From: Kineosporia sp. A_224
GTDB lineage: Bacteria; Actinomycetota; Actinomycetes; Actinomycetales; Kineosporiaceae
Length of the DNA stretch: 44,214 bases
Reading direction: 5' to 3'
NCBI RefSeq assembly: GCF_002198655.1
Contig: NZ_MWLN01000117.1
Location: 1-44,214, forward strand
A program made the translations under genes and the position numbers. The notes beneath the pieces were generated by a model that was given only the letters and a program-made list of their open reading frames with translations, made no database searches and was not told where the DNA came from. Below are positions 8,319-44,214 of this stretch, in pieces. Every line of letters begins with the position of its first letter. The stretch's first letter is position 1.

Positions 8319-8368
8319 CCCGGCCGCCCGTGGACGCCCGCACCAGCCCCAGGAGAGGGATACCCGCC

Positions 8369-9349
8369 ATGCCACGACCCACCCTGCTGCGCCGCGCGGC
8401 CGCCCGGCTCGTCCCGGTCGCCGCGGCCGCCCTCACGCTCGGCGCGTGCGGCGGGCAGGCCCCCGCGGTCGCCCCCGCGCCCGGCGTGACCCCGACGACG
8501 TGCGGCACCGTGACGCTCGCGTCGAACGCCTGGCTCGGGTACGACGCGAACCTCGCCGTGATCCGGTACCTCGCGGTCAACGAGCTCGGCTGCACGGTGA
8601 AGATCCGCAAGGCCGCCGAGGACGACTCGTGGAAGCAGGTCGCCGCCGGGAGCACCGACGCGATCGTCGAGAACTGGGGCCACGACGAGCTCAAGAAGAA
8701 GTACATCGACGACGAGCGCCTCATCGTCGAGGGCGGGCTGACCGGCAACAAGGGCGTCATCGGCTGGTACGTGCCGCCGTGGATGGCGAAGACCTACCCC
8801 GACATCACCGACTCGCGCAACCTCAAGAAGTACACGCCGCTGTTCAAGACCGAGGACTCCAAGGGCAAGGGCCAGTTCCTCGGCGGCGACCCGACGTTCG
8901 TGACGAACGACGGCCCGCTGCTGCGCAACCTCGGGCTCGACTTCACCGTCGTCTACGCCGGCAGCGAGGACGCGCTCATCAAGGCGTTCCGGGCCGCCGA
9001 GCGGGACAAGACCCCGCTGCTGGGCTACTTCTACTCCCCGCAGTGGCTGCTCTCCGAGCTCCCGCTCGCGCACGTGACCCTGCCGCCGTACACCCCCGGC
9101 TGCGACGCCGACCCGAAGACTGTCGCGTGCGACTACCAGCCCTTCGACCTCGACAAGATCATGAACCGGAAGTTCGCCCAGTCCGGCAGCCCGGCCGCCG
9201 AGCTCATCAAGAACTTCCAGTGGACGGACGCCGACCAGAACGAGGTCGCCCGGGCCATCAACGCGGGGACGCCGCCGGACGAGGCCGCCAAGGCCTGGCT
9301 CGACGACCACCCCAAGGTGTGGAAGAAGTGGCTGCCTGCGGCGCAGTGA
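8369..9349 (+). CDS. ABC transporter substrate-binding lipoprotein, glycine betaine/OpuAC-like
   Basis: A 326-residue exported lipoprotein. The signal sequence MPRPTLLRRAAARLVPVAA leads to the lipobox LTLGAC, so the mature protein should be lipid-anchored on the outer face of the membrane. The body (VTLASNAWLGYDANLAVIRYL, TDAIVENWGHDELKKKY, GYFYSPQWLLSELPLAHVTLP) resembles binding proteins for glycine betaine or related quaternary amines. The ATG at 8369 has AGGAGAGGGA upstream; a GTG at 8315 in the same frame overlaps cvnD but would bury the signal peptide. No permease or ATPase gene is adjacent. It may serve a transporter encoded elsewhere or present a ligand to CvnA; the latter is speculation from position. 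Confidence 0.85.
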   Translation: MPRPTLLRRAAARLVPVAAAALTLGACGGQAPAVAPAPGVTPTTCGTVTLASNAWLGYDANLAVIRYLAVNELGCTVKIRKAAEDDSWKQVAAGSTDAIVENWGHDELKKKYIDDERLIVEGGLTGNKGVIGWYVPPWMAKTYPDITDSRNLKKYTPLFKTEDSKGKGQFLGGDPTFVTNDGPLLRNLGLDFTVVYAGSEDALIKAFRAAERDKTPLLGYFYSPQWLLSELPLAHVTLPPYTPGCDADPKTVACDYQPFDLDKIMNRKFAQSGSPAAELIKNFQWTDADQNEVARAINAGTPPDEAAKAWLDDHPKVWKKWLPAAQ

Positions 9350-9546
9350 CCGCCCGGTAGCCGCCCGGGCGGCACAGGACAGGGCCGTCGTGCTGCAGTC
9401 GGTGTGCCGTCGTCCCGCCGCTCTCGAGGTCCTCAGGACGGCGGCGGTGCCGACGCCCGCGGCGGTGTCAGGCAGCCCGGCCGCCGATGGTCACGGACGG
9501 CGGGTGTGCTGAACGGAACGTCCCAGGGTTTGAAGTCAGCGATGGA

Positions 9547-9581
9547 CCAGGTCCCAGGACCCAGGACCCAGGTCCCAGGTC
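9547..9581 (+). repeat. Five tandem copies of the 7-mer CCAGGWC
   Basis: Units start at 9547, 9554, 9561, 9568 and 9575 and differ only at the W position (T, A, A, T, T). The array lies in the 375-bp gap between the lipoprotein and the next operon. Just downstream of the lipoprotein stop, at 9360-9373, is the perfect palindrome GCCGCCCGGGCGGC, which may help termination. The function of the repeat is unknown. Confidence 0.85.
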
Positions 9582-9724
9582 TAGGCACTTGACCGTCCCG
9601 GTGGCTGCTCCGATCATGGGTCAAGATCGGGCGTATCTGGACCCTTGTGCGGCGCTCCTCACATCGAGGCGGGCCGCGCGGGCGGCCGGGGCGCGCCGTG
9701 CGACCAGGGTTCGGGGGAGCCTCC

Positions 9725-11503
9725 GTGCAGCGAAACACCGATCATCTCGTGGCCGTGGGGCCACGCCATCCCGTCACCTCGTTCCCGCTGTGGTTCAAGG
9801 ACTCGACCGGGCTGCTCCTCGAGCTGGGGCTGGACCGGGCGGACCCGTTCCTGCCGGCGATCGGGGACGTCCCCGCGGCCCCGGCACCGGCGCCGTTCGC
9901 CGCGGACTTCCCCGACGAGTCCTTCTACTGGCTCGCGGACGCGAGGCTCACCGTCCTCGGCGGGGACGTCCCCGGTCGGGCCCGGCTCGTCCTGGCCCTC
10001 GAGGCGGCCTTCGGTGGGACCGGTGACGTCGCGCCCGGTCAGCAGATGGTCTTCGGCCGGCTGCGCGTCCGCATCGACGGCGGTGTCCCGGGTGCCGACT
10101 ACGTCGTGACGCACCCGTTCGGCGAGACCGGGTCGTTGCGGGCGGACGGCCGGGGCCGCGTCTTCGTCACCGACGACGTCGGGGCCGTGCCGCTCGGGTT
10201 CGACGGCGCGCTGTCCTCCGAGGTCGGCCCGTTCCTGCGCTGGACATCCGGGGCCGAGTTGGCGCCTGGCGAGACGGAGGCGCCGGCGGGCTACGTCGGG
10301 GACGGTGCCACCGAGCACACGGTGACCGGGAGCCCTTTCGGTACCAACGTCTTCCGGGTCCGCGGCCCGGGCGTCGGCGGGCCGGGCTCCGACGTCGTCG
10401 AGACGGCGTTGTTCACCGTGCAGGGAAAGCGCGCCACGGTCGTCGGGGTGGACGTCGCCCGCGCCGTCTACAGCCGCGACGCTGCCGGTGCGGTCGTCGT
10501 CGACGTCGTCGCCGGGTCCGAGCCGGGCCAGGCGGTCGAAGCCGTCGTCGACGCCGGCGGTGCGCCGTCCCGCATCGCGCTGCGTGCCACGGGCGGGCGG
10601 TACTTCGGTCGCCTCGACGCGGGCACCGCGGTACCGGCCGAGGTGCTCGTCGTCAACGTCGGCGACGAGCCGCCCAGCACGACACCCGCCGCCGTGACCG
10701 ACGCCGTGGTGGTCACCCGCGCCGAGTACGACATCGCGGCACGCACCCTCACCGTCGAGGCGGCCTCGTCCGACCTCGCGGTCCCGCCCGTGCTCACGGC
10801 GTCCGACGGCATCGGCGCGCTGGCGGCCGGGTCCGCGACGGTGACGCTCGACGCGCCGCCCGCCCGGGTGACCGTCACGTCGTCGCGGCCGGGCGCTGCG
10901 GGGCCCGGCGGCGTCGGGCAGCGGGACGTCACGGTGACCGGTCCGCCGTCGCCGCCGGCGCCGCAGCCGGCCCCGGCCGCCCGCGTCGCCGCCGAACCGG
11001 TCGCCGTCCCCGGTGCCACCGTGGTGCTGGACGGCAGCGCGAGCACCGGGGCCACGGCGTTCGCCTGGACGCAGACGGCAGGCGCGGACGTCGGTGCCGT
11101 CAGCGGTGCCGCCACCGACCGCGCCACGTTCGTCATGCCCGCGGCCGGTGGCCCGGTGACGTTCCGGCTCACCGTCTCGGGACCCGGCGGCCCGGCTGCG
11201 ACCGCGGACGTCACCGTCGGGGTGAGCACGGACGCACTCCTGGTCTCCGGGGCCCAGTTCCGGACGGCGTCCGGGCGCTGGCGGGTCCGCGGGACGGCGA
11301 CCGGGGTGGCGCCGGACACCGTCACCGTGACGTACGAGGGTGGCGACCTGGGGTCCGCGCTCGTCGACGCGACCGGTGCGTGGGACGTGCGGCTCACGCT
11401 CGTCGCCGGCGACGGCAGACCGCGCCCGGTGCCGGGCCGCACCGTTGACGTCGTGTCGAGCCGTGGCGGGGCCGTGACGGCTGCCGTCACCGTGCGCAGC
11501 TGA
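9725..11503 (+). CDS. Uncharacterised PKD-like repeat protein, first gene of copper-associated operon
   Basis: A 592-residue protein that I cannot assign to a named family as a whole. The N-terminal 230 residues begin with VTSFPLWFKDSTGLLLELGL and contain no known catalytic motif. Beta-rich, Ig-like segments follow. A PKD-like domain at about residues 415-510 carries the hallmark VVLDGSASTGATAFAWTQT. The GTG at 9725 is chosen because GGGGGAG lies 5 bp or so upstream; the frame is open back to 9647 without a better site. No signal peptide is obvious, which is odd for a PKD protein. The stop is 11 bp before the DUF1326 gene, so all four genes to 18144 probably form one transcript. Confidence 0.75.
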   Translation: MQRNTDHLVAVGPRHPVTSFPLWFKDSTGLLLELGLDRADPFLPAIGDVPAAPAPAPFAADFPDESFYWLADARLTVLGGDVPGRARLVLALEAAFGGTGDVAPGQQMVFGRLRVRIDGGVPGADYVVTHPFGETGSLRADGRGRVFVTDDVGAVPLGFDGALSSEVGPFLRWTSGAELAPGETEAPAGYVGDGATEHTVTGSPFGTNVFRVRGPGVGGPGSDVVETALFTVQGKRATVVGVDVARAVYSRDAAGAVVVDVVAGSEPGQAVEAVVDAGGAPSRIALRATGGRYFGRLDAGTAVPAEVLVVNVGDEPPSTTPAAVTDAVVVTRAEYDIAARTLTVEAASSDLAVPPVLTASDGIGALAAGSATVTLDAPPARVTVTSSRPGAAGPGGVGQRDVTVTGPPSPPAPQPAPAARVAAEPVAVPGATVVLDGSASTGATAFAWTQTAGADVGAVSGAATDRATFVMPAAGGPVTFRLTVSGPGGPAATADVTVGVSTDALLVSGAQFRTASGRWRVRGTATGVAPDTVTVTYEGGDLGSALVDATGAWDVRLTLVAGDGRPRPVPGRTVDVVSSRGGAVTAAVTVRS

Positions 11504-30439: not shown

Positions 30440-31519
30440 TCATAACCCGAGGGTGGTAGCCGCATTGTCGGTCCAGGCGTGCTCGATGCGGACGTAGGCG
30501 CCGAGGCTGGCCAGGGATCGATGTCGGGTCTGATGGGCGATGGCCCGGTCCGAGGCGCCGCGCAGGTGGGCGTAGGTGACGAACCCGGCGCGCAGGCTGT
30601 GCGCGCTGTACCCGACGGGCAACCCGGCCCGCGCGACGGCGGCCTGGACGAGGTCGTTGACGGACTCCGGGTGCAGCGCCCGGTCGCCGACGCGGTTGCT
30701 CTTGGCCACCGCCCGGAAGAGTGGCCCGGTCGTGATCCCGGCGAGCTCGGTCCAGGTCTGCAGGGCGGTGACGGGGCAGCGGTCGGGGTTCCCGGCGCGG
30801 GGAAGGACGACGAGCTCGGGCTGTTCGCCGGTCTGGTTGGTCTTGGACCGGTTCAGGGTCAGCACCAGCCCGTTGGCGTGCTCGGCGACGTCCTCGACGT
30901 CGAGGGCGACCAGCTCGCTGCGGCGTAGCGCGGCGACGAAGCCGACCAGGAGCAGGGCGCGGTCGCGGGCGCCGGCGAGGTCGGGTTCGGCGGGGCGGCC
31001 GCGGGTCTTCCAGGTCCGGGTGCTGGGGCAGGCGTCCAGGACGTCGAGCAGCTCGGGCGGCATCAGCGGCTTGGCCTGGTCGGGCGGCGCCCCGTGGACG
31101 CGGCGGATGCCTTCCCAGACGGTCTGGACCCGGGAGGTGGCGGTGGGGTCGGGCAGATCGCGGGCGGCGTGCGCGAACCGGATGGACGACAGGCGCCGGC
31201 TCATCGTCCCGACGCCGGCGCCGGCCATGGCGAGGGCGGTCAGGTAGGCGGTCAGCGCCGAGGGAGCGGCGGGCATCGGCTCGAGGTCGTGCCGGCGGCA
31301 CCAGGTGCTGAACTCACGCCAGTCCGAGCGGTAGCCGCGCAGCGTGTTCGCGGCCCGAGCGGCCCGCGCGTACCGCGCCTCGCCCTCCGGCAGCTGCGCG
31401 ATTGCCGGGCCGGCGAGGTCGACCTCACCCGGCGAGGACGCCGCCTCCCCCCTGCTCTCGATCGACGGGACGGACCCCGCAGCGTCGTCGTCGGGCGCAA
31501 TCTCCGAGGGCTTGTCCAC
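30440..31519 (-). CDS. Tyrosine recombinase/phage-type integrase
   Basis: A 359-residue site-specific recombinase. The N-terminal SAM-like DNA-binding domain includes NTLRGYRSDWREFSTWCRRH. The catalytic domain carries the active-site Arg in ALRRSEL, HxxR in SAHSLRAGF, the later His in HQTRHRS and the nucleophile Tyr in LGAYVRIE near the C-terminus. All core catalytic residues appear present, so the enzyme may be active. It lies between a decaying zone and the CRISPR array, on the same strand as the cas genes, and could mark the edge of an integrated element. An imperfect 38-bp inverted repeat lies just upstream of its GTG start. Confidence 0.92.
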   Translation of the reverse strand: MDKPSEIAPDDDAAGSVPSIESRGEAASSPGEVDLAGPAIAQLPEGEARYARAARAANTLRGYRSDWREFSTWCRRHDLEPMPAAPSALTAYLTALAMAGAGVGTMSRRLSSIRFAHAARDLPDPTATSRVQTVWEGIRRVHGAPPDQAKPLMPPELLDVLDACPSTRTWKTRGRPAEPDLAGARDRALLLVGFVAALRRSELVALDVEDVAEHANGLVLTLNRSKTNQTGEQPELVVLPRAGNPDRCPVTALQTWTELAGITTGPLFRAVAKSNRVGDRALHPESVNDLVQAAVARAGLPVGYSAHSLRAGFVTYAHLRGASDRAIAHQTRHRSLASLGAYVRIEHAWTDNAATTLGL

Positions 31520-31711: not shown

Positions 31712-31745
31712 GCACGGCGACCGGCAGACCGAAGGGGACGGCGAC
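31712..31745 (-). repeat. Degenerate CRISPR half-repeats at the distal end of the array
   Basis: On the minus strand GTCGCCGTCCCCTTCGG (ending at 31745) matches the first half of the CRISPR repeat with one inserted base, and GTCGCCGTGC (ending at 31721) is a weaker copy. Between this and the first full repeat lies a CCTCG pentamer repeated five times (31781-31805), overlapping the repeat start. Decayed repeats mark this as the old, trailer end. Confidence 0.6.
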
Positions 31746-31799
31746 ACGCGACGCGCTTGCCTGGCCATCAGGCTTCTTCGCCTCGCCTCGCCTCGCCTC

Positions 31800-33072
31800 G
31801 CCTCGATGAAGGGCCGTCCCCGAAGGGACGGCGACGCGGTCACACCCAGCGGCAGGTCCACCTCTGCCCGGCCTCGATGAAGGGCCGTCCCCGAAGGGAC
31901 GGCGACCCGACGTCCCGCAGATCCGGGCCGACCGGCTCGTCTGGCCTCGATGAAGGGCCGTCCCGAAGGGACGGCGACCTGGCAGGCGATCGCGCAGGCG
32001 AACCCCGTCCCTCGGGCCTCGATGAAGGGCCGTCCCCGAAGGGACGGCGACCGCGATGCCGGTCCCGCCCGCGCCCGGCGACGGCGCCTCGATGAAGGGC
32101 CGTCCCCGAAGGGACGGCGACCGAGACCGGGGATGACAAGTGGTTCGTCCTGCGCGTGCCTCGATGAAGGGCCGTCCCCGAAGGGACGGCGACTGAAGCG
32201 CCAGCCGCCCGACTGGCGGGCCGCAGCCTGGCCTCGATGAAGGTGTCCCCGAAGGGACGGCGACTCGGGATAGCCAGCCGACCCCGGTACATCTCATGTC
32301 CCGCCTCGATGAAGGGGCCGTCCCCGAAGGGACGGCGACTCCGGACCTCGAACGTCGGGCTCGAGTAGGTCTCGCCGCCTCGATGAAGGGCCGTCCCCGA
32401 AGGGACGGCGACCGACGGGCGTCTGGGAGAGCAGCGACGCGCCCGTGCGGCCTCGATGAAGGGCCGTCCCCGAAGGGACGGCGACGACGAACAACCTCAC
32501 GGACGCGTCGTGGTACGTCGTGCCTCGATGAAGGGCCGTCCCCGAAGGGACGGCGACCATGGCGCGCGCCCGCAGCTCGAGGTCGTTGTCCCGGCCTCGA
32601 TGAAGGGCCGTCCCCGAAGGGACGGCGACGGTGTCGTCACGGAGGTACTCCACTTCTCGGTTGAGCTGGCCTCGATGAAGGGCCGTCCCCGAAGGGACGG
32701 CGACCTGGACAACCCGGGAGCCACGACGGTGCGGTTCGGCGTGCCTCGATGAAGGGCCGTCCCCGAAGGGACGGCGACCCGAGGCCAGCACCTACTGGTA
32801 CGGGACGTTCATCAAGCCTCGATGAAGGGCCGTCCCCGAAGGGACGGCGACCGTCGATGGTGTCGTCGTCCCACGCCAGGGGCGGGGCGCCTCGATGAAG
32901 GGCCGTCCCCGAAGGGACGGCGACGCGGGTCGCGGCACCCTCGGTCGGGTTGGGCTGCAGGCCTCGATGAAGGGCCGTCCCCGAAGGGACGGCGACCGCC
33001 CCCGCCCGGGAGGGCGCTCGGAAGGGCGAAGTCCTCGCCTCGATGAAGGGCCGTCCCCGAAGGGACGGCGAC
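31800..33072 (-). CRISPR. CRISPR array, 18 repeats of 36 bp and 17 spacers, type I-G context
   Basis: The 36-bp repeat (first copy 31800-31835, last 33037-33072) reads on the plus strand GCCTCGATGAAG, then GGCCGTCCCCGAAGGGACG, then GCGAC. It contains an 8-bp stem, GCCGTCCC/GGGACGGC; on the minus strand the loop is the very stable TTCG. Spacers are about 34-40 bp. Repeats 9-18 are identical; defects cluster on the left: copy 3 lacks one base, copy 7 (from 32232) has a shortened centre and copy 8 an extra G. This polarity, plus the 3' end CCTTCATCGAGGC on the minus strand, suggests minus-strand transcription with the young end at 33072. There the last repeat abuts cas1 codons directly, with no leader. 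Confidence 0.95.
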
Positions 33073-34541
33073 CCTCGGTTGCGGCCGTCGGGTCGAAGCC
33101 GTGCGTTGCCGGTGACGCGGGAGAAGTCCGCACTCTTGAGTTCGGCGTTGTTGAAGACGCTCAGGACGACGGAGTCGGCGACCGGGGCTCGGAACTCTTC
33201 GCACAGGTCGAGGGCGAGGGCTGGCTTGTTGCGGCCGCTGGAGTGCAGGAACCCCGCGTGCGGATCGAGCCCGCAGGCCACCACGGCCCGGATCACGTCT
33301 GCGAGCAGCAGGCCGTAGCAGAGGTTCAGGGCGGCGTTGAGCGGGTCGTTCGCCGGTCGCCGGTCCCGCGTGCTGAAGATGATGTCCTCGGCGCGGGCGC
33401 GGTCGTTGAGCATGGTGTCGAACTGCGCGAAGTAGCGGGCAGCGGCGTCCCCCTCGATCCCGAACAGTTCGGGGAGCGAGGGTGCGCTGGACGCCCTTCG
33501 CTGCAGGTCTCGCAGTGCCTGAACGGTGTCGGGGGCGTCGCCGTGCCGACGCAGCAGGGTCGCCTGGTTGCAGATCTTCGCCGTGACGAAGGCCCTGGCC
33601 AGGTCGAGATGGCCGCGGTCGGACGCGACGTGCTGCCGGACCCGGGGACCGCCGTTCGGGGTCTGCGCGGAGGCGGCCCACCCGATGACGCGACCTGCGC
33701 TGGAGCACCAGACCACCGGGGACCGACGCCACAACAGCTCGCGGATCAGGGCCCCGCTGAGGTCGATGTTGCCGTGGGCGACCACCGCCAGGACCCGTTC
33801 GAGGGGGACGCTGCCGACGTCCTCGCCGTGGTGGGTAACCCGGATCCGGCCGGCGCGCAGCGAGGCCCGGGATCCAGGGGTTGCCAGGTGCAGGACCTGG
33901 GAGTCCGGGTCGGCGACCAGCACCCTGCGGTGGACCGGTGCCAGCGCGCGCTCGTCGGGCAGGCAGACACCTGCGTGTGAGCATCGGGTGCACCGTGGGT
34001 CGTCCTCGAGTGGCGGGGGTGCTGTGCCGGCGTCGAGCAGGGCGGCGAGGTCGCTGCGGTGCCGGCGGGCGCGCTCGAGCTCCGGGGGCCCGATCTGGAC
34101 GGCGACCCGGGTTCGGTGCTCGGTGAAATGAACGGCGGCCCCGGTGACCGGCGTGCCGGTCTCGGCCAGAGCCGCGGCGAGCAGAGCGAGTTGGACGACC
34201 ATCGGTTCGGTGACCTCGGCCTTGCGTCGGACCGGGGTGGCCTTGTACTCGACGACGGTGACCGCACCTGAGTCGTCGATCTCGACGGCGTCGCAGCGCC
34301 CAACGACTCCGAGTTCGGCGCTGGCGACGTCGACCGCCCGCAGGCAGTTCGGCCGTGAGGCCGCTGGGTCGTCGCTCGCGGCATGAGCTTGGATCCCGAC
34401 GGCCATCTGCTGGGTGTCGGTGCTCTCGCCCATTGCTTCGAGCCATGCGCGGCGGGGGCAGAACACGTGGTGGGCAACCAGGCTGATGGGGAGCAAACTG
34501 GTCGCCGGGTCGTCCACGCTCTGTCTGACGATGCCGGTCAC
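32637..34541 (-). CDS. cas4-cas1: Cas4-Cas1 fusion, truncated in the Cas1 C-terminus and reading into the CRISPR array
   Basis: Adaptation protein of the type I-G system. The GTG at 34541 follows the preceding stop by 4 bp. The Cas4 part (about residues 1-195) has the RecB-type motif VTVVEYKATP and four Cys (C28 and the C-x2-C-x5-C group CTRCSHAGVC) for a Fe-S cluster; it normally helps select PAM-bearing prespacers. Cas1 starts at about residue 200. The catalytic Glu in GIEG (about 361), His in GFLHSSGR (about 431) and Asp in LALDLCEEF (about 443) remain. After NARLRPDGRNRG (about residue 489, base 33073) the frame enters the last CRISPR repeat and encodes about 145 residues of repeats and spacers to the stop at 32637. 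Roughly 55-65 native residues are missing, and no cas2 follows. Confidence 0.88.
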   Translation of the reverse strand: MTGIVRQSVDDPATSLLPISLVAHHVFCPRRAWLEAMGESTDTQQMAVGIQAHAASDDPAASRPNCLRAVDVASAELGVVGRCDAVEIDDSGAVTVVEYKATPVRRKAEVTEPMVVQLALLAAALAETGTPVTGAAVHFTEHRTRVAVQIGPPELERARRHRSDLAALLDAGTAPPPLEDDPRCTRCSHAGVCLPDERALAPVHRRVLVADPDSQVLHLATPGSRASLRAGRIRVTHHGEDVGSVPLERVLAVVAHGNIDLSGALIRELLWRRSPVVWCSSAGRVIGWAASAQTPNGGPRVRQHVASDRGHLDLARAFVTAKICNQATLLRRHGDAPDTVQALRDLQRRASSAPSLPELFGIEGDAAARYFAQFDTMLNDRARAEDIIFSTRDRRPANDPLNAALNLCYGLLLADVIRAVVACGLDPHAGFLHSSGRNKPALALDLCEEFRAPVADSVVLSVFNNAELKSADFSRVTGNARLRPDGRNRGSPSLRGRPFIEARTSPFRAPSRAGAVAVPSGTALHRGLQPNPTEGAATRVAVPSGTALHRGAPPLAWDDDTIDGRRPFGDGPSSRLDERPVPVGAGLGSPSLRGRPFIEARRTAPSWLPGCPGRRPFGDGPSSRPAQPRSGVPP

Positions 34542-34545
34542 AGCT

Positions 34546-35607
34546 TCACAGCGCCTCGACCGGCAGGACGTCACCACGCATTGCTCGGGGCTCGGCTGCC
34601 TTTCCATCGCTGACCTGATCGATCTGGAAGCGAATGACGCCAACCACCCCACGCGCCGCCAGCCACGCCCGGGCCGCCGCGATCTGTGGTTCGGCGGCCG
34701 CCCACCGTGGTGGGAGCCCGGCGGTCGCGGCGGTCTGCAGCTGCCGGGAGGCCAGGACGGTCCGCAGCCGGCTGGACGTCCACGGCACGGTCCAGACCGG
34801 CGTGTAGAACCACTCCGCATGAACACGGCCGAAGTGACATGTGGTGGCCGCTGCGGGCGGGTTGTCGGACCCGACTCGAGGGGTCTGGGGGAACTGGGAG
34901 ATCCCCCACAGCGCGCACCAGGCCAAGGCATTATCGGTCGGCCCAGGGTTGGCCAGGCCGGTCGGGGTCCGCGAGCCTGGCTTGATCCCGCCGATCTCGT
35001 CAGCAATGCGTTCTCCGGCCAAGCCGGCGCGAACCCCGATGTGATCACGGACGGCGACGGCTTGGGCCAGCTTGCGCAACTTGTTCCGGACGAACTCCGC
35101 GCCTGAGTTTCTCGACTGCATCTCCAGCCGGCTCGCCCCATTGTCCTGCAGCCAACTCTTGTCGCCTGGCTTCCTCAGATCACGCGCCCAATACGCAGGC
35201 TCACCGAGCGCCTGCAGGAAGCGTAGGTCGAGCAACGCGCGATCCGCCGTGAGGTGATCGAGTGCGCCGTGCCGGGCCGCTCGGAGAATCAGCCATTCGT
35301 CCTCGCTGTCGCCGATGACGGAGATCCGCGGGCTCATCAGACCCCGCGGCGTGCCCCCCAGCTCGAGATCTGCGGCGACCCAGCCGGTGTCGGCGGCGTG
35401 CCGCCGGGCGTGGTCGTGGACGATCCGAACCAGGTCGTCGAGGTCTGCGCTACCAGTGTCGAGGCAGGGTCGGGGCTGCATGCCGGGGGTCCACCTCAGC
35501 CGGGTGCTGACGGTTCCGGCGTCTTCGACGATGGCTGCGAGGCCGTAGAGCGCGAGGTGGCTGAACAGCGTGCGCACATCGGCGCCGGCGATGGTGAGGG
35601 TGGTCAT
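34546..35607 (-). CDS. Putative Cas8-like large subunit of type I-G effector
   Basis: A 353-residue protein at the place of the Cascade large subunit, between cas3 and cas4-cas1. Its ATG (35605-35607) overlaps the cas3 stop as ATGA, with AGGAGG just upstream. The start TIAGADVRTLFSHLALYGLAAIVEDAG resembles openings of I-G/I-U Cas8-like proteins, and RLRWTPGMQPRP and LDDLVRIVHDHARRHA follow. I do not recognise the exact family (Csb3, Cas8u2 or Csx17-related), so the call rests largely on operon position and size. Such subunits recognise the PAM and support Cas3 recruitment. Confidence 0.7.
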   Translation of the reverse strand: MTTLTIAGADVRTLFSHLALYGLAAIVEDAGTVSTRLRWTPGMQPRPCLDTGSADLDDLVRIVHDHARRHAADTGWVAADLELGGTPRGLMSPRISVIGDSEDEWLILRAARHGALDHLTADRALLDLRFLQALGEPAYWARDLRKPGDKSWLQDNGASRLEMQSRNSGAEFVRNKLRKLAQAVAVRDHIGVRAGLAGERIADEIGGIKPGSRTPTGLANPGPTDNALAWCALWGISQFPQTPRVGSDNPPAAATTCHFGRVHAEWFYTPVWTVPWTSSRLRTVLASRQLQTAATAGLPPRWAAAEPQIAAARAWLAARGVVGVIRFQIDQVSDGKAAEPRAMRGDVLPVEAL

Positions 35608-38600
35608 CGTCCCTCCTGGGAGATCTGGCCGTCGGCAGCCCGCAGGACGGCTTCGAGGTAGGCGCATCCCCAGAGCCCGTACCGGCGGTGGGTGCGCTCG
35701 ACGAGGTCGTCCCAGCCGCCGGTGTCGAACAGCTCCCGGGATGTCTCGGTCAGGGCGTCGGTGCCGTGGGAGTCGAGGAGAAGGTCGGCGGTGGTGTGCG
35801 GGAACCCGGTCCGGCCGTGGCCGTGGCTGGTGCCGACGAGCCGGGCGGCTAGCAGCGGGTCGAGGTCGTGCTCTGCGGCCTCGTGCAGCGGTGTCCAGGC
35901 GTGCAGCACGGACAGTTGTTCGTGCCGCCAGCCGGCGGGCAGGCCGCAGGCCCGTTCGTTGGATCGGGCTTGCGTGGCCGTGGTGGCGGCAGAGCTCTTG
36001 GCCAGCAGCTGGTCGGGGTCGGTCGCGCCGAGGCGAACCTGGAACCGGGGGTCCTGCTTGCCGTCGTCGTGGTGGACGGCGGCGTGCTGCAGGGCGTTGA
36101 CCACAGCGGCCGGCACGTCCAGGTCGGTGGCGATCCGGGTGACCCGTTGCGCGACGTCGTGCTGGTGCGCGGTCAGGGTCACGGTGGTGCCGGTGGGGGT
36201 CCAGGTCTGCCGCAGGTGTTCTTCGGCGCCGGCTCGGCGGCGGTCACGGACCAGCACCCGACGGACCGTCGCGTCGTCGTCGCGGTGGACGACGACCTCG
36301 CTGTGCTTGGGGTGTCCGCGCAGCAGGGTCTGGGCGGCCGGGGCCATCGCCCACGCCTCGGGTGCGTCGTGGGTGAGCCAGTCCGCCACCAGCTGCTCGG
36401 TGGCCTGCCTGGCGGCGTCCGGGTCGTCGAGGATCTCGGCCAGGGGCTTGGCCAGCAGCGCGAACCGGTGCTCGTCGAGGTCGGCGACCCCGGCCTCGAT
36501 GCGCAGCACGACGTTGCCGGTCTGGCGTCGGGGCCAGCCGGTGAGGTCGGCCTGGCCTGTCAGCACGTCGTCGGCGGTGCGGGCCGGGACCGGACCGTCG
36601 TCCTCACCGGCCATGGGACGTACGACCGGCGGGGTGAACCGGGCGGGGTCCGGTGAGGCGGCGAACACCGCAGTGCCCGAGTCGAGCACGACGACGTCGC
36701 CCGGGCGCAGCTGCGGCACCTCCCGGTCCGGGTCGGACGGGTCGGTGCGCCAGGTGAGCACCGTGGTGTCCTGGCCGCTGACCCGCACCGTGACCGGTGT
36801 CGCCGTCTGGCCCGCTCCCGTGGGGCGGGCCAGGGTGGCCAGCGCCGTCCGGTAGGGCACCGGGAACACCTCGTGGCGTTGGACCGGCAGGTCGTTCAGG
36901 AGCCGGACCGCGTCGTCGCCCTGCACCGGCAGGGCGTCCCGGACGATGAACCCGACCGTGGTGTCGGAGTCGAAATCTTCCTCCAGCCAGAGCGCGAGCT
37001 CAGGTTCGGCGGCCAGGTCGTCGCTGGTCCGGGCCCAGTGCCACGCGTCGAACAGTTCGGGACGCTGCAGCAGGATCCGGCGGCCGGCCGGTGTCGGTGG
37101 CGGCGTGTCCCGCAGCGCCCAGGGCGCCATCCCGGCGTCGGTAACGGCTCGCTCCCGGACCCAGGTCAGGGCCGCGGCCAGGTCAGGACCCAGGTACGGG
37201 CCGGACCGGGTGTCCGCCGTCGGGTCCTGGTCCGGTGCGATCACCACGACCGGGCCGGCCGTGCGAAGGCCGCGTCGGTTGACCCGCCCGGCACGCTGGG
37301 CCAGCGCGCTGCCCGGGGCGAGCTCGGTGACCAGCCCGGCCAGGTCGAGGTCGACACCGACCTCGAGGCTCTGGGTGGACACGATGACGTCGACATCGTG
37401 GTTGCCGGCCGGGGTGAGTAGCCCGGGGTAGAGCTGCCGGAGCCGGTCCAGGTCGTAGGGGCGGGTCTGCCCGCAGACCGTCACCACCCGCAGCGGACGC
37501 CCATCCCGGCTGCGGCCGCCCAGCTCGGCGCTGACCTCGACCGCCCGCCGCACGGTGTTCACGAAGCAGCCCACCGTGTGAGTGACCGCCGAGGCGGTGC
37601 TGACCTCGACGCCGTCGCTCGTCGCGCCCTCGGTGCCAGTCGGGCCAGGCAGCAGGTCCTCGACCAGCAGCTCCTCGACGGCATCGGCGATCCGGGTCAC
37701 CACCAGGCGGCGGGCCTTGTCCTGCTTGGAGTCCCAGCCGGCCACAGACAGCACACGCACCGGCTTGGGCCGGGTCAACCGGTCCGCCAGGACCGGGGCG
37801 GCGTCCAGGTCCGGCGGGTCCACCCCGACCGCGAGCAGCCCCTCTCCCCCGGGGGTGGCGCCGGGTCCGGCAACGGCCGGGGTGGCGGTGGTCTCGACGA
37901 CCTGCAGCGGCCGCCACGGCACCGGCTCGTCGGCGACCCGAACCAGGTCAGCGACCCGCCGCGCGGTGACCAGCAACTGACGGGCCAGGTGCGCCTCGTC
38001 GACGACGACGACCGAGTCGACGGCCAGCAACCCGGCCTCCCGGGGCCAGGCCCGCCGGTCCGAGCCGTAGCCGCGGAACAGCACCCGACTGCCCCACATC
38101 TCCGGCGTCGCACAGATCACCGCCGCGGCCCCGACATGGTCACGCCACACCCGAGACGGCGGGGTACCTCCGCGCAGCCGGCCCAGCACCAGCGGAGAGA
38201 CCTCCCCGCGGCCGCGGACCCCGGTCACGGCCAGGTCGCCGGTCGCATCGGCATCGGCGTCTGCTGCTGTGTTGGCGGCTGTGTTGGAGTGGGCGTCGGG
38301 ATCCCGCATCCGCCACAGCCGGTCCGCGACCGCGGCCAGCACCCGGTCCTCGGGTGCGACCAGCCGGTCGGCCAGAGTCCTGGCGTACTCGTACTGGTCG
38401 TCGACGAGCACCCGGCGCCCGACGACCAGGGCCAGCCGCCGCGGTGGGCGGGCGGCGACCGGATCGCCGGCGGTCAACGCCTGGGCGAAGACGTGCACGT
38501 CGATGACGGCGGTCTTGCCGGCACCCGTCGGGGCCACCACCTGGTCCGGCCACCGCCCACCGTCCAGAACGGTGTCGAGCAGGCGGACCTGCCATGCGAA

Positions 38601-38672
38601 CGGCGCCGCCCCGTCGTGCAGCGCGGCGAAGAAGTCCCCGAAGTCCGCCCGGACCAGAGGGCTCGCGCTCAT
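35604..38672 (-). CDS. cas3: Type I-G Cas3 helicase with C-terminal HD nuclease domain
   Basis: A 1022-residue interference nuclease-helicase that unwinds and degrades target DNA marked by Cascade. The helicase motifs are Walker A VVAPTGAGKTAVID, DEAH box VVVDEAHLARQL and motif VI LAQRAGRVNRRG. The HD domain lies at the C-terminus: HAAVHHDDGKQDPRFQ near residue 880 and a later His-rich GTSHGHGRTGF. HD at the C-terminal end is typical of I-G/I-U Cas3, whereas most Cas3 proteins have it first. ATG 38670-38672 overlaps the csb2 stop (ATGA); the longer frame to 38792 lies inside csb2 and is Arg-rich shadow. All key residues are present. Confidence 0.92.
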   Translation of the reverse strand: MSASPLVRADFGDFFAALHDGAAPFAWQVRLLDTVLDGGRWPDQVVAPTGAGKTAVIDVHVFAQALTAGDPVAARPPRRLALVVGRRVLVDDQYEYARTLADRLVAPEDRVLAAVADRLWRMRDPDAHSNTAANTAADADADATGDLAVTGVRGRGEVSPLVLGRLRGGTPPSRVWRDHVGAAAVICATPEMWGSRVLFRGYGSDRRAWPREAGLLAVDSVVVVDEAHLARQLLVTARRVADLVRVADEPVPWRPLQVVETTATPAVAGPGATPGGEGLLAVGVDPPDLDAAPVLADRLTRPKPVRVLSVAGWDSKQDKARRLVVTRIADAVEELLVEDLLPGPTGTEGATSDGVEVSTASAVTHTVGCFVNTVRRAVEVSAELGGRSRDGRPLRVVTVCGQTRPYDLDRLRQLYPGLLTPAGNHDVDVIVSTQSLEVGVDLDLAGLVTELAPGSALAQRAGRVNRRGLRTAGPVVVIAPDQDPTADTRSGPYLGPDLAAALTWVRERAVTDAGMAPWALRDTPPPTPAGRRILLQRPELFDAWHWARTSDDLAAEPELALWLEEDFDSDTTVGFIVRDALPVQGDDAVRLLNDLPVQRHEVFPVPYRTALATLARPTGAGQTATPVTVRVSGQDTTVLTWRTDPSDPDREVPQLRPGDVVVLDSGTAVFAASPDPARFTPPVVRPMAGEDDGPVPARTADDVLTGQADLTGWPRRQTGNVVLRIEAGVADLDEHRFALLAKPLAEILDDPDAARQATEQLVADWLTHDAPEAWAMAPAAQTLLRGHPKHSEVVVHRDDDATVRRVLVRDRRRAGAEEHLRQTWTPTGTTVTLTAHQHDVAQRVTRIATDLDVPAAVVNALQHAAVHHDDGKQDPRFQVRLGATDPDQLLAKSSAATTATQARSNERACGLPAGWRHEQLSVLHAWTPLHEAAEHDLDPLLAARLVGTSHGHGRTGFPHTTADLLLDSHGTDALTETSRELFDTGGWDDLVERTHRRYGLWGCAYLEAVLRAADGQISQEGR

Positions 38673-40279
38673 CGAGGACCCCCCTGGGTCGTGCCGTGCA
38701 GGACGTCGGCCAGGGCGGTGCCCTCGGGAACGTCGACCGGGACGAGGAGCCCGCCGCCGAGGTGGCGGCTCTGCCCGAGCGCCAGCACGCAACGGTCCGG
38801 GACCACGTCGCCCAGCGAGACAGTGGCCCGGTAGGGGCGGATGACGGCGTGGTCGTTGACCTTGTGGACGTAGTCCTGCACCCGGCTGGTCCGCACCGGG
38901 GACGCATCGAGCACCACCGCATGCCCGTCACCGACGCGGGCGACCAGGTTGCGGTACAACTCGTCGCGGCGTCCGGGGACCCGCCCGAGCTGGTCGCGGA
39001 CGACGAACCCCAACGACAGCAGCGCCGTGTCCGCGAACGTCCACCCGCCCTGGAGCCCGCGGATGTCTGGGATCGCCGGCGAGGCGGTCCGCCACAGCCG
39101 CAGTGTGCCGGTCGGGCGGTCGCGCCACAGCATGGCACCCGACACGGTCCGGGCCGGGCCGCTCACCGTGTACCCGGTGGTCGCCGAGGTCCGGAACGAG
39201 GTCAACCCGTCCGCCGCTGCGGCCAGCACCTCCAGGTCCGAGGGCCGCGCCCCGGCCGGGATCATCAACGCCAGCCACATGTCCCCACCAGAAGGCAGAT
39301 CGACCGGCATCGAGGCGTCCAGGAAGTGCACCGCGATCCGGTTCGTCGGCGGCCGCAACCCCTTCGGGTACGCGCCGGTGACCAGCGGTGGTGCGCCGTC
39401 CCCGATGATCCGGATCAACGCCCGATGCACCGCGACCGCGGACCGCACCCGGTCCCGCTCCCCGATCCCGCCGCGCGCCGGCTCCTGCGCCGGGGTGATC
39501 GGCACCAGCATCACCTGCGGCCACGGCACGTCAGCGAGCACCTCGGAGACCGGCGCGTACCGGGCCAACGCCACCGCCTCCCGGGTCGGGACCGCAGACG
39601 TCGAACCCTCGTCGGTGCCGTACTTGTCCCGAGCCACCGACGGCGGCGTCCCCGTGGCCGCCCGGTGCGAGGCCGTGAGCTCGTCGAGCCGTCCCGGCAC
39701 CGGCAGCTCCAGATCCCAACCGCCAGGGGTGAACAACCCGGCGTCGGGGTCGAGGCGGTGCGTGGCCGCCGGGAGCGCCTCGCCCCCGGCCCCCGGTGCC
39801 CCGCTCGCGCGCAGCCGGACCGGGGACTCTGAGGTCCCCAGGTAGGGCACGTCCGGGCAGAGTTCCGTCAGGGTCTGCGCGACCGCCGGCGGCGGCTGCT
39901 GGGTCCACGTCCAGGTGAACCGGCCGGCGACCGCGACGCTGACGTCAGGTGTCTTCCCGAGCTTCCTCGTGGCTAGTGACGCCTTCGACTTCTTCAAGGT
40001 TCCGTCGTCGCGGTACGCCACGACCCGGCCCCCGTTGACCGTCAACGGCGGGATGTGCACCTCGTCCGGAGGGTTCTCCTCGAGCCACCGCAACGCCTGC
40101 GCGTCCGAGTCGGCGACCGTCAGCGCATCACCGGTCGACTGTGCTCGCGGCCCCAGCCCGGCCGCGGACAACAACGCCGAGTACAGCCGCGACACCGACG
40201 GGACCGCCTCGACCCGGCCGTCCGCCGCCGCCCCGCGGTAGGTCCCCAACGGCAGTTCCGCTGTGATCGTGAACGTCAT
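38669..40279 (-). CDS. csb2: Csb2, Cas5-Cas6-type fusion of type I-G
   Basis: A 536-residue GSU0054-like protein. In type I-G this combines a Cas5-like part, which caps the crRNA 5' end, with a Cas6-like part, which cuts pre-crRNA. The N-terminus MTFTITAELPLGTYRGAA and VPSVSRLYSALLSAAG match the family. The C-terminal half holds RAMP-like features including ALGQSRHLGGGLLVPVDVPEG, a Gly-rich loop following a His. ATG 40277-40279 is one base from the csb1 stop. No other cas6 gene is present, in line with this role. The catalytic His cannot be fixed without alignment. Confidence 0.87.
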   Translation of the reverse strand: MTFTITAELPLGTYRGAAADGRVEAVPSVSRLYSALLSAAGLGPRAQSTGDALTVADSDAQALRWLEENPPDEVHIPPLTVNGGRVVAYRDDGTLKKSKASLATRKLGKTPDVSVAVAGRFTWTWTQQPPPAVAQTLTELCPDVPYLGTSESPVRLRASGAPGAGGEALPAATHRLDPDAGLFTPGGWDLELPVPGRLDELTASHRAATGTPPSVARDKYGTDEGSTSAVPTREAVALARYAPVSEVLADVPWPQVMLVPITPAQEPARGGIGERDRVRSAVAVHRALIRIIGDGAPPLVTGAYPKGLRPPTNRIAVHFLDASMPVDLPSGGDMWLALMIPAGARPSDLEVLAAAADGLTSFRTSATTGYTVSGPARTVSGAMLWRDRPTGTLRLWRTASPAIPDIRGLQGGWTFADTALLSLGFVVRDQLGRVPGRRDELYRNLVARVGDGHAVVLDASPVRTSRVQDYVHKVNDHAVIRPYRATVSLGDVVPDRCVLALGQSRHLGGGLLVPVDVPEGTALADVLHGTTQGGPR

Positions 40280-40280
40280 C

Positions 40281-41480
40281 TCAGGACTTGCTCTCCGTGT
40301 CGTCCTCCACGGCCCCCGCGACGATCGCGGGGTTGCCGGCCACCTCGAGCACCGGCCCGGACCACACCACCCCGGCAGCCTGCCCAGCCCGCTCGAGAGC
40401 CGCCGCGAGTAGCTCGTCCGCGGCCTCGATGGTCAACGGCTCCAGCGTCATCGACCGGCCACCACGCTGGTCGACCTGCAGCTCGGTCGGTGCCGCCTCC
40501 CGAAGATCGCAGTTCGCCCGCAGCACCAGCTCGGCGTCCGACCTGGCCAACGCGTTCAGCGCCAAGGCCGACAGCAGCGCCCGGCATGCCACGTCCCCGG
40601 CCTCACCAGCCCCGAACCGGATCTGCCGCAACGTCGCGAAGCTCAACACGTGCGACCGGACGATCCGGTGACACGCCACCCCGGCCAGCGCCTCCAGGGT
40701 CGGCGGAATCCCACCCAGCCCCAATGGCGATGCGGAGACCGGCTTGCCGCCCTTGGTCTTGGAGATCTTGTCGAACAGCTTGTGGCTCAGCTCGCCCTGC
40801 TGGCTGACCGCCAGCTCCTTCAACGTCGCCTCGCTGAGCAGCACCTGCATCCCGACCGGGTCGGTTCGGGCCCCACCCTTGAGCGCCGTCCGGTCATCGG
40901 CGCAGAACCCGACGATCTCCCCGACCAGCACACTGCGCCAGCGCCCCTGCCGAGCCGCCCGCGAGGAGTCCCAGCTGCCGAACACCAGGCTCACCGGTGA
41001 GGCATCCAGCAACGCCCGCGCGTTCGCCGGGCTCGCGTCCCGGATCGCCCGGTACTGCGGCAGCTGCGTCACCGGTGCCCCGTCGACCGTGCCCGCCCTC
41101 AGATGGCCGTCGAACACCCGGTGCGGCAACGTCAGGTCGGAGTACTCCTCCACCTGGCCGTTGCGCTCGTACCGCAGCAGCACCCGCGGCAACCGTGACA
41201 GCACCGGGTGCCCGTCCTCGATCGCATGCTGCAACGCCTGCTCAGCCCGGTTCAGTTGACTCTGCTTCGAGTCGATCACCACCGCCTGCGCCGACACCCC
41301 GTCGAGGTACCGCTTCTCGTACGCGTACGCCCCCTCGTCCCGTCCCCGCACCGCGAACTTCGCTGGCGCCACGCTCGCCTGCGGACCGCCAGCCGGCTCC
41401 AACTCGGTCACCGACGTCAGGCACGTCGGCCCACCCGTCGACGCGGCCGCCACCAGCACGTCGAGATCCAGACCCGTCAC
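40281..41480 (-). CDS. csb1: Csb1, Cas7-family backbone subunit of type I-G
   Basis: A 399-residue GSU0053-like protein, the first gene of the cas operon. It should form the repeated backbone of the crRNA-guided complex. Family features include KQSQLNRAEQALQHAI, ASPVSLVFGSWDSSR near residue 165, VGEIVGFCADDRTALKGGARTDPVG and SASPLGLGGIPPTLE. GTG 41478-41480 has GAAGGAG 6-7 bp upstream. The 284-bp gap to the AbiEii-like gene should contain the cas promoter; no clear -35/-10 pair was found, but a repeat-like hairpin lies there. Confidence 0.92.
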   Translation of the reverse strand: MTGLDLDVLVAAASTGGPTCLTSVTELEPAGGPQASVAPAKFAVRGRDEGAYAYEKRYLDGVSAQAVVIDSKQSQLNRAEQALQHAIEDGHPVLSRLPRVLLRYERNGQVEEYSDLTLPHRVFDGHLRAGTVDGAPVTQLPQYRAIRDASPANARALLDASPVSLVFGSWDSSRAARQGRWRSVLVGEIVGFCADDRTALKGGARTDPVGMQVLLSEATLKELAVSQQGELSHKLFDKISKTKGGKPVSASPLGLGGIPPTLEALAGVACHRIVRSHVLSFATLRQIRFGAGEAGDVACRALLSALALNALARSDAELVLRANCDLREAAPTELQVDQRGGRSMTLEPLTIEAADELLAAALERAGQAAGVVWSGPVLEVAGNPAIVAGAVEDDTESKS

Positions 41481-41764: not shown

Positions 41765-42634
41765 TCACAGTTGCGGTAGCTGGGCCATGAACGCCGGCGC
41801 CAGCGCGGCCGGGCTGACCCCGGGTACAGCCGACAGCGCGCGGACGGCCATCTCGACGCCGTCGGTGCGCGGGGACCCGAACAGGCGGTGCAGCGCATCG
41901 AGACCGGTGCGCGTAGCGTCGCCGGCGCGCGGGTCACCCAGAAGCCGGTTCATGGTGGCCGCGACAGTCTCGACATCGGCGGTCATCATCAGCGCCACGA
42001 TGTCGCCGGCGTCCTTGTCGACGCTGCGACCGGGCCGGCGTTCCGCGTCCGCGAGCCGTTCGGACACCTTGATGGCCTTGGCGATGAGCAGCGCGGTGGG
42101 CCCGGCGACCCGGGTCTCGACGGACCGGGAGTCGATGTCGGGCTCGAGGCTCGGCAGCGTCATCACTGTGTTGTCGACGACGGTGGCCTCGAGGCCGGGC
42201 ACGCGCAGGAAGGTGCCTCGTGGGTGCGGTGGGATGTTGGCGCTGCGACGGCCCCTGCCGTCGTCGGTCAGGGAGTGCGGGACGAGCAGGTCCACCTCAA
42301 TGTTGACGGGCTGCTCGTTCAGGGTCTGCTGCTTCCACCACAGGCCCGGGTTGCCGCGGTCGCCGCTGATGTTGCGTGCGAACCCTGCCCGGCTCATCGC
42401 CTCGTCGACGAGGGGATCCTCGCCGAGGAGGGCCGGGTCGATGACCAGGTCGCCGTCCGAGGTGAACGCGGCGACGCCGAGCTCGGCGTCCGCGGCGTGG
42501 ATGTAGACGGCCTGGGCGCCGACCAGGATCAGGGCGTCACGGTGGTCGTACAGGGCCGTGAGCGCGTCGAGCAGAACCCGACGCGCAGCGACGTAGAGGA
42601 TCTGCTGGTCGACCCCGACCGGAACCCTGGACAC
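41765..42634 (-). CDS. AbiEii-like nucleotidyltransferase toxin (type IV toxin-antitoxin)
   Basis: A 289-residue protein with the nucleotidyltransferase signature of the AbiEii/DUF1814-like group. LILVGAQAVYIHAADAEL at about residues 35-52 provides the conserved GA and following His, and TSDGDLVID (58-66) the Asp pair D60/D62 for metal binding. A helical C-terminal half includes GPTALLIAKAIKVSERL, a Lys-containing motif typical of the family, and KDAGDIVALM. AbiEii toxins use NTPs to modify RNA or otherwise arrest growth during phage infection. GTG 42634 has GGGAG about 7 bp upstream. It follows the AbiEi-like gene after 67 bp, the usual antitoxin-then-toxin order. Confidence 0.75.
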   Translation of the reverse strand: MSRVPVGVDQQILYVAARRVLLDALTALYDHRDALILVGAQAVYIHAADAELGVAAFTSDGDLVIDPALLGEDPLVDEAMSRAGFARNISGDRGNPGLWWKQQTLNEQPVNIEVDLLVPHSLTDDGRGRRSANIPPHPRGTFLRVPGLEATVVDNTVMTLPSLEPDIDSRSVETRVAGPTALLIAKAIKVSERLADAERRPGRSVDKDAGDIVALMMTADVETVAATMNRLLGDPRAGDATRTGLDALHRLFGSPRTDGVEMAVRALSAVPGVSPAALAPAFMAQLPQL

Positions 42635-42701
42635 CCCGTCACTCCCGCTCGTTGTCTCCCGTGGCAGCCAGCAGCCTAATGCCGATCCCCAGCGTCGGTC
42701 C

Positions 42702-43868
42702 TCAACGCCGGTCCTCGGCCCACTCCCCCAGGCTCGTCAGCCGCCAGCCCTCGTCCAGCGACTGCAGGTGCTCCAGCACCGCCTCCCCTTCGGCGGGGAG
42801 CCGCCCGGGCCCGCCGAGGCAGTCCAGCACCAGCTGGCTGTACGCGACGTGCGGGACACCGTCGACCAGGCGGCGACCGAGCAACGCCTCCGACCCGGTC
42901 GAGCGCAGCAGCAGCACGTCAGCACCCGACTCCGCCGGCAGCAACCCCAGAGGGCGCCGCAGCGCCTGCAGGGCATCGTCGGTGACCTCCTCCAGGTGAA
43001 CCATCAGCTGCCCACCCACGGCCAGCGGAGCGACCTTGGCCGCCGCCGCCGAGCCGGTGACCGCGACCCGGCCGTGGTCCTCCTCGTCCCATCGGTCCAT
43101 GTGTAGCTGGGCCAGGACGTGGTCGACGCCGCGCTGGGCGACCATCGGGACCGGAGGATGGCCCTTGAGCAGGCCGTAGGAGCCCGCGCGCTCCCGCAGC
43201 AGACCAGCCCAGTCGACCCAGACGACGGCACGGTTGTCCCGTCGGATAAGTCGCTGGTCCTCCAGCGCGTCGAGCAGCCGGGAGATGTACCCCAGGCTCA
43301 GACCGGACGCCTTCCCGAGGTCGGTGCCGCGGTAGGGCGGCCGCACATCGGCGAGCACCCGGACCAGCCGACCGGCCTTGTCCCCGCGCAGCTGCTGCCG
43401 CCACGTCCCCTTCGAGGGGTTCGGGTCACGCTGCTCCCCCACCGTCTGGACGTGCACGCCGAGGCGAGGCAGCCGCAGCCATGTGTTCCCGGTCAGGTCG
43501 AGGTAGCCGTACCCGAGATCCTCCAGGACCTTGCGGGCGCGAGGACTCAACCAGGGCGCGATCACCAGCACCGCGGCGTCACCGGTCAGGCGCAGCATCA
43601 GGTCCAGCCGAGGCGCCAGCGAGCGGGAGATCGCCGCCGGCGTCGGGTCGGTCGTGACCTCCACAAGCACCGGACACGTCATCCGCGCCCCCTGAGACTC
43701 CACCGTGACGACATGGTTCAGGACCGCGTCCGGCGCCACCGAGCGAGGCAGATTGGACGGCTGCGGCATCCCGACGTTGTACTCGGTGATCTTCCAGTCC
43801 GGGCCGAGGATCTGCCGGACCCGGTCCAGTCCCTGCTCCAGCAGTTGCTGCTCCTGACCGCCGCTCAC
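42702..43868 (-). CDS. AbiEi-like winged-helix antitoxin/transcriptional regulator
   Basis: A 388-residue protein upstream of the AbiEii-like toxin. The N-terminal half includes RMTCPVLVEVTTDPTPAAIS and VLVIAPWLSPRARKVLEDLG, a restriction-endonuclease-like arrangement. A winged helix-turn-helix at about residues 155-215 contains LVRVLADVRPPYRGTDLGKA and LSLGYISRLLDALEDQRLIR. The GTG at 43866-43868 is chosen over the longer frame to 44012 because AGAGGTGG lies 6 bp upstream and because the promoter boxes lie inside the extension. Inverted arms AAACTTGC/GCAAGTTT around the leader fit autorepression, as known for AbiEi antitoxins. The family call rests on gene pairing as much as on sequence. Confidence 0.65.
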   Translation of the reverse strand: MSGGQEQQLLEQGLDRVRQILGPDWKITEYNVGMPQPSNLPRSVAPDAVLNHVVTVESQGARMTCPVLVEVTTDPTPAAISRSLAPRLDLMLRLTGDAAVLVIAPWLSPRARKVLEDLGYGYLDLTGNTWLRLPRLGVHVQTVGEQRDPNPSKGTWRQQLRGDKAGRLVRVLADVRPPYRGTDLGKASGLSLGYISRLLDALEDQRLIRRDNRAVVWVDWAGLLRERAGSYGLLKGHPPVPMVAQRGVDHVLAQLHMDRWDEEDHGRVAVTGSAAAAKVAPLAVGGQLMVHLEEVTDDALQALRRPLGLLPAESGADVLLLRSTGSEALLGRRLVDGVPHVAYSQLVLDCLGGPGRLPAEGEAVLEHLQSLDEGWRLTSLGEWAEDRR

Positions 43869-43931
43869 GACGATCCACCTCTCATGCAAACTTGCGCCCA
43901 CGTAACAATTGCAGGAACCCCGCAATCGGTC

Positions 43932-43959
43932 ATCATAGGCAAGTTTCACTGAAAGTAAA
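43932..43959 (-). promoter_or_regulatory. Promoter of the AbiE-like operon with flanking operator arms
   Basis: On the minus strand TTTACT (43954-43959) and TATGAT (43932-43937) are spaced by 16 bp. GCAAGTTT (43939-43946) lies between the boxes and its inverted partner AAACTTGC lies at 43888-43895, 43 bp downstream. TTTCA-C-TGAAA (43944-43954) is a second small palindrome. The local drop in GC content is conspicuous. Confidence 0.6.
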
Positions 43960-44214
43960 GATTGTCGGGACCACGCAACGTCACGTTCCAAGCAAACTCT
44001 CCGAAGTGACACCTCGTACGACGCCCTCTGGCCCGCGCCTCACGGGCGCCCGGGGCACCGACCGCGAGGTCCGCGCAGCCGTCGTCGCGCCCGCCCGCTG
44101 CGCCGTCCCGTCACGGCCATGGCTGGGAGGGTCAGCGGCTGCGGCCAGGTGCGGGGCGCAGGACGGGCGGTGGGAGCGCGGGGTGGGCCGGCCGGGTGGG
44201 TGCCGTGTCGGGGA
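43960..44214. other. Window end without a supported gene
   Basis: This last stretch is upstream of the AbiE-like promoter. I see no start with a ribosome site, no repeat and no RNA gene here. Confidence 0.5.

Follow-up and report, generated by a model that had tools for sequence, protein, structure and literature searches.

The type I-G CRISPR locus of Kineosporia sp. A_224 raises the question of what becomes of a system whose cas1 gene runs directly into its own array: whether the stored memory can still be extended and used, and whether the long reading frame that crosses the repeats encodes a protein. The locus lies within a stretch of 44,214 nucleotides, referred to here as the window, on the minus strand of which csb1, csb2, cas3, cas8g and a fused cas4-cas1 form a type I-G operon followed by a CRISPR array. 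A sequence-only reading of the window had proposed that a deletion removed the C-terminus of Cas1, cas2 and the leader, and that the frame continuing through the repeats would be a protein translated from immune memory. The two proposals fared differently.

The type I-G gene set was present, with matches to TIGR02621, TIGR02165 and TIGR02570 above cut-off and Cas8g recognized through PADLOC, and NF049935 was the best model for the Cas4-Cas1 fusion, so that its proposed type I-G identity was borne out. All four interference genes, on the minus strand, look intact. The csb1 gene (cas7g; 40281 to 41480) encodes 399 aa, scored 38.4 bits against TIGR02570 (cut-off 38), matched the PADLOC Cas7g model with an E value of 1.3e-32 and aligned over residues 4-396 of 399 with its counterpart in the Amycolatopsis taiwanensis locus L023 (68%). 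The csb2 gene (38669 to 40279; 536 aa), a cas5-cas6 fusion for the repeat-RNA nuclease, covered the TIGR02165 profile from 1 to 492 of 492 at 234 bits, and its residues 1 to 518-525 of 536 aligned with loci L023, L016, L022, L014 and L015. The cas3g helicase-nuclease gene (35604 to 38753) likewise covered TIGR02621 completely (1-854 of 854, 658 bits). For cas8g, which encodes a Cas8g or Cas3-extension protein of 373 aa (34546 to 35667), PADLOC gave an E value of 7.7e-78 and NF049934 only 40.5 bits, below its cut-off of 65, and residues 1-373 of 373 aligned with L023. The near full-length alignment of Csb1, Csb2, Cas3g and Cas8g with five relatives upheld the earlier statement that interference genes are intact; judged from their sequences, the interference proteins are whole and the array is otherwise ordinary. 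A promoter and terminator scan found neither, where 0.1 and 0.7 would be expected by chance, which makes the negative outcome of little informative value. Upstream of csb1, positions 41765-44012 of the minus strand hold two genes, one of which encodes an IclR-type helix-turn-helix protein and the other a protein with no match in Pfam or PADLOC.

The cas4-cas1 gene is different. Its remnant (33075 to 34541, minus strand) starts with a GTG at 34541 and encodes 489 aa ending in ...ARLRPDGRNR, the last full codon being 33077-33075, and it is without the last 52 Cas1 residues. The match to NF049935 covered positions 1-494 of 546 and scored 397.5 bits, short of a cut-off of 560 that seven complete relatives in Kineosporia's order also missed (451-479 bits). 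The remnant covered positions 1-275 of 283 in PF01867, and the alignment of the solved homologue 7mi4 ended at its residue 507 of 559. Of 21 aligned relatives, 20 were informative, the row of L043 consisting entirely of gaps, and all 20 carried exactly 52 further Cas1 residues; L023 (which has no Cas1), L028, L042, L044, L045 and L053 were left out. A Cas1 that naturally ends at this residue was thereby ruled out, and the expectation that Cas1 proteins continue past the break held, with slightly fewer residues missing than the 55-65 that had been proposed. Among ten related loci, nine carried Cas4-Cas1, which ran past the end point of the window protein in every case, and L023 retained only its start. 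The closest comparisons were the I-G (formerly I-U) loci of Prauserella, Salinispora, Lapillicoccus and Actinoplanes (L014-L017 and L022), which share the Cas4-Cas1 fusion with the window at 65-71% identity. The remnant retains E363, H433, D445, C28, C184, C187 and C193, each of them unchanged in all 7 aligned rows, a set which we take to include active-site and metal-cluster residues.

These same relatives show what is missing. The csb1-csb2-cas3-cas8 order is the same as in the window in the four loci searched for it (L014, L015, L016 and L022), and the 36-nt repeats of these loci end in CTTCATYGAGGC as they do here; unlike them, the window has neither cas2 nor a leader, its Cas1 is 52 residues short at the end, and cas1 borders directly on the array. 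The arrangement of cas1 tail, cas2, leader and then repeats was found in 8 of the 8 relatives measured, namely those in which both cas2 and the first repeat could be located, and this agrees with the earlier statement that cas2 and a leader normally separate cas1 from the array. In these relatives cas2 encodes 97-101 aa, the leader spans 177-260 nt and the distance from the cas1 stop to the first repeat is 467-562 nt, compared with a gap of at most 8 nt between cas1 and the repeat here. With the relatives' cas1 tail, cas2 and leader absent from the window, the deletion amounts to about 0.62-0.72 kb or more.

The missing parts were also sought elsewhere in the draft genome of Kineosporia sp. 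A_224 (7,196,381 bases in 242 contigs, listed as 100% complete). The search returned a single Cas1 and no match in the 242 contigs to the Cas2 model PF09827, which found cas2 beside cas4-cas1 in all four Kineosporiaceae genomes with a complete Cas4-Cas1 that served as controls (G005, G006, G007 and G008). The stretch comprising the cas1 tail, cas2 and leader of locus L018 had no recognizable copy among the 40 of 189 candidates scored; the 37 short matches covered 19-46 query bases, the best being 33 bases at 91% (E 3e-4). By tblastn, the three best of these places did not encode Cas2, and the cas2 of L016, used as a control, was found at E 7e-29. Searching the window for the leaders of L023 and L018 gave no good copy, the best match covering 20 bases at E 0.02. 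A leader at the opposite end of the array was considered and rejected, as relatives have the leader beside cas2 and the window held no leader match. No undeleted allele was found in two congeners, one of them 88% complete, neither of which carries an I-G locus.

The joint itself could be placed within a few nucleotides. The earlier reading had the Cas1 frame intact to about 33073 with the repeat beginning at the next base, and the sequence, open reading frames and repeat analysis agreed: two bases (33074-33073) separate the last full cas1 codon from an exact 36-nt repeat at 33072-33037. In the Cas1 alignment, the glycine and arginine in columns -3 and -2 match 13 of 20 and 19 of 20 relatives, and the asparagine and arginine in columns -1 and 0 match 0 of 20 and 1 of 20. 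The conserved G-R pair stops 8 nt short of the repeat, which puts the break at 0-8 nt from the repeat start, and the deletion joint (33073 to 33080, minus strand) consists of up to 8 nt of cas1, or of a spacer or leader remnant, directly before the repeat. Since homology to Cas1 extends to 8 nt or less from the repeat, the join of cas1 to the repeat is no accident of alignment. About 9 in 73 random breaks would be expected to fall as close to a repeat as this, and the position of the break is therefore only suggestive and provides weak evidence about its origin.

Beyond the joint, the frame meets no stop across six repeats with their spacers, as had been stated, which gives a tail of 145 codons beyond residue 489 (32637 to 33074, minus strand) with its stop at 32639-32637. 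The proposal that this tail is a meaningful protein found no support. No stop occurs in any minus-strand frame of the repeat, and 26.8% of 5000 shuffles of the spacers stayed open at least as long as the tail, so that its openness needs no explanation; across the array, the longest open stretches in the six frames ranged from 119 to 279 codons. A structure model with a mean pLDDT of 49, in which the Cas1 end itself fell below 50 from residue 384, was used for the tail only; it placed no helix or strand there and gave the tail a low-confidence pLDDT of 22-33. Csb2 would also be expected to cleave the message at the repeats, given that in a characterized I-G system Csb2 alone of three subunits tested cleaved the 36-nt repeat RNA (excerpts of PMC9638904), and part of PMC9710616 counts translated CRISPR repeat regions as one kind of spurious protein prediction. 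A working Cas4-Cas1 with an array-encoded tail, kept by selection, would account for the 145 open codons and for a remnant that is free of stops and keeps the invariant residues; with these points against it, and with a single genome carrying the arrangement, we consider such a protein exceedingly improbable. The tail was judged spurious, a by-product of the deletion rather than a new protein.

Apart from its missing leader, the array (31800 to 33072, minus strand, leader-proximal end at 33072) holds 15 exact 36-nt repeats and three imperfect ones, the latter seen inside longer gaps between exact copies, with regular spacers of 34-40 nt, a range taken from 12 individually resolved spacers. The repeat RNA is predicted to fold into an 8-bp hairpin with a UUCG loop (-19.6 kcal/mol, z -2.9), and at up to 3 mismatches the repeat occurred in this array only within the genome. 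Against phages the array gave 44 records, 30 of which were listed, and against plasmids 5; among the matches listed, homologues were found for spacer 3 (32852 to 32888, minus strand), the spacer at 32265-32302 and the spacer at 31907-31943. The spacers resemble actinophage genes: spacer 3, for up to 35 of its 37 bases, matched helix-turn-helix genes from Arthrobacter phages. Of five spacer pieces compared with IMG/VR, one matched, the exact 27-base piece of spacer 3, which picked out six contigs in which the spacer agreed at 32-35 of 37 bases. Flanks taken from 10 of the 49 phage and plasmid records and from the six IMG/VR contigs read TGG or TAC for spacer 3 and CCC and CGC for the other two, and because these differ no PAM was derived. 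The arrays of L022, L020 and L021 had no match among phages and that of L023 one weak match, and comparison of the window array with 392 genomes of Kineosporia's order gave weak matches in 6 besides its own. Just past the leader-distal end, a tyrosine recombinase (Phage_integrase) gene occupies 30440-31519 of the minus strand, and a degenerate repeat-like stretch was noted by eye at 31721-31748.

The alignment, the genome search and the leader comparison support the proposed loss of the Cas1 end, cas2 and leader, and make it very probable that a deletion joined cas1 to the array, with adaptation lost, interference probably kept and the array placed within the cas operon. Such a deletion would have taken the final 52 codons of cas4-cas1 along with the complete cas2 gene and leader, as well as any lost repeat-spacer units, and would have left cas1 fused to the first remaining repeat, the DNA event most likely being plain end joining or short-homology recombination. 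The leaderless array would now be transcribed together with the cas operon, at its 3' end, and cleavage of that transcript by Csb2 at the repeats would still supply crRNAs for the old spacers. A cas1 message cut at the first repeat would lack a stop codon, and the tail would therefore rarely if ever be made as a stable protein. Adaptation should be dead, as an incomplete Cas1 and the loss of Cas2 and the leader would prevent the addition of new spacers, and the old spacers can probably still be used for interference. The kind of decay is ordinary; the joint is unusual.

Other origins of the joint were weighed against this deletion by end joining or short homology. In a 242-contig draft with repeat-rich arrays, a contig could be missing, or an assembler could have wrongly joined cas1 to the array of a strain that in fact carries cas1, cas2 and leader in full. 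The joint, however, lies inside a 106-kb contig whose array was resolved through 15 exact 36-nt copies, which presumably means that joins were made through overlaps longer than the repeat. An artefact should also have left the cas1 tail, cas2 and leader on some other contig, where none was found, and the last cas1 bases had no good second copy (85% over 39 bases at best, among the 40 of 443 candidates scored), all of which makes a misassembly very unlikely. A different possibility is that the joint is a fossil of CRISPR acting on its own gene, through either a recombined self-spacer or half-site integration. If so, the system would have deleted its own memory-writing end, frozen its array and put that array in the cas operon, an outcome that we regard as unlikely.

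The first of these routes supposes that a spacer acquired from the strain's own cas1 recombined with cas1, deleting everything between and curing autoimmunity. It predicts a joint exactly at a repeat boundary, consistent with a break 0-8 nt from the repeat start, and self-targeting has been found to cause deletions around the target in Haloferax (parts of PMC7521656) and to bring about toxicity and genome changes in Pectobacterium (parts of PMC3630108). Against it, a random break falls this near a repeat often enough, and for spacer lengths of 34-40 the possible 5' flanks in cas1 are GCA, GGC, CGG, CCG, ACC, CAC and TCA, none of the seven being TTN or TAT, the PAMs given for other I-G systems in excerpts of PMC9638904 and PMC12915315, which may not be those of this system; TT or TA would stand at that place by chance in about 10% of cas4-cas1 positions. 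No spacer matched the strain's own genome better than E 0.002 among the 40 of 443 candidates scored, and the spacers of relatives gave only short matches to the loci compared, so that this route appears quite unlikely. In the second, Cas1-Cas2 would have carried out the opening chemical step of spacer uptake on its own broken cas1, linking a 3' end of that gene to the boundary of leader and repeat, and replication would then have fixed the product as a deletion. Its product would be exactly cas1 plus the first repeat with no need of a PAM, and in I-G the non-PAM 3' end is the one joined first at the leader-repeat junction (excerpts of PMC10504553). No trace sets this outcome apart from end joining, however, its exactness is uncertain by 8 nt, and none of the 19 other fused Cas4-Cas1 matches in two surveys offered a second example; we hold it to be highly improbable.

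Loci without adaptation genes and truncated cas1 genes are already known (parts of PMC8092290 and PMC5704556). The type VI-B locus of Flavobacterium columnare consists of an effector and an array without cas1-cas2, as set out in portions of PMC8092290, and there another system can supply adaptation, whereas the search of the Kineosporia sp. A_224 genome found no other Cas1 and no Cas2. Truncated I-B loci of Bacteroides fragilis resemble the window in having a truncated cas1 beside the array, but in the portions of PMC5704556 that describe them most interference genes are lost and cas2 is kept, the reverse of what is seen here. Among the titles listed on loss or truncation of cas1, leader deletion, leaderless arrays and self-targeting, no described case of a cas1-array fusion was found. 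The nearest parallel was Amycolatopsis taiwanensis L023, which has the same interference genes and a repeat that differs from that of the window in the hairpin only. In that locus about 30 residues of Cas4 run straight into the Cas2 end, a leader of 176 nt and the array remain in place, and csb1-csb2-cas3-cas8 is whole; the joint, together with a partial copy of the cas2 end, leader and a short array upstream of csb1, was noted in L023:552-1110 and L023:8007-9078. The break there runs from cas4 to the end of cas2 and that of the window from cas1 to the repeat, and because the break points differ, adaptation would have been lost twice independently in related loci.

Together with the Amycolatopsis case, the window suggests that in this clade I-G loci can give up adaptation while retaining interference. 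The locus represents a natural split of the use of immune memory from its acquisition, with a frozen I-G array joined to its own effector operon and lacking a leader, Cas2 and a complete Cas1. It makes testable both the expression of an I-G array without a leader and the idea that integrase chemistry can delete its own locus, and it serves as a warning that in GC-rich genomes a long reading frame across a CRISPR array is not necessarily a protein.

Surveys for further cas1-array fusions covered 396 genomes of Kineosporia's order and 394 of its class, counting matches that begin no later than position 60 of NF049935 and extend into Cas1. Fused Cas4-Cas1 matches numbered 15 in the order and 6 in the class, the window's own being present in both, and none of the others had a C-terminal cut (0 of 14 and 0 of 5, respectively). 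Five class matches starting at 90-102 with one stop inside were not counted and end at 535 or later. Cas1-only matches that end early occurred in G600, G682, G396, G246 and G555; G600 by eye appears to have a shifted frame and still contains a Cas2-like open reading frame, and G682 also looks frame-shifted. In another member of the Kineosporiaceae (L076), whose genome had no Cas4-Cas1 or Cas2 matches and whose 16 kb examined held no relative of the window csb1 or csb2, a Cas3g-like helicase gene (7772-10135) lies between arrays at 1930-2790 and 10452-10877. Three of the 14 other fused matches in the order (G371, G316 and G141) contain in-frame stops. In loci L043, L044 and L045, also of Kineosporia's order, genes for fused Cas4-Cas1 lie next to CRISPR arrays and contain in-frame stops, and these may be further decaying adaptation modules.
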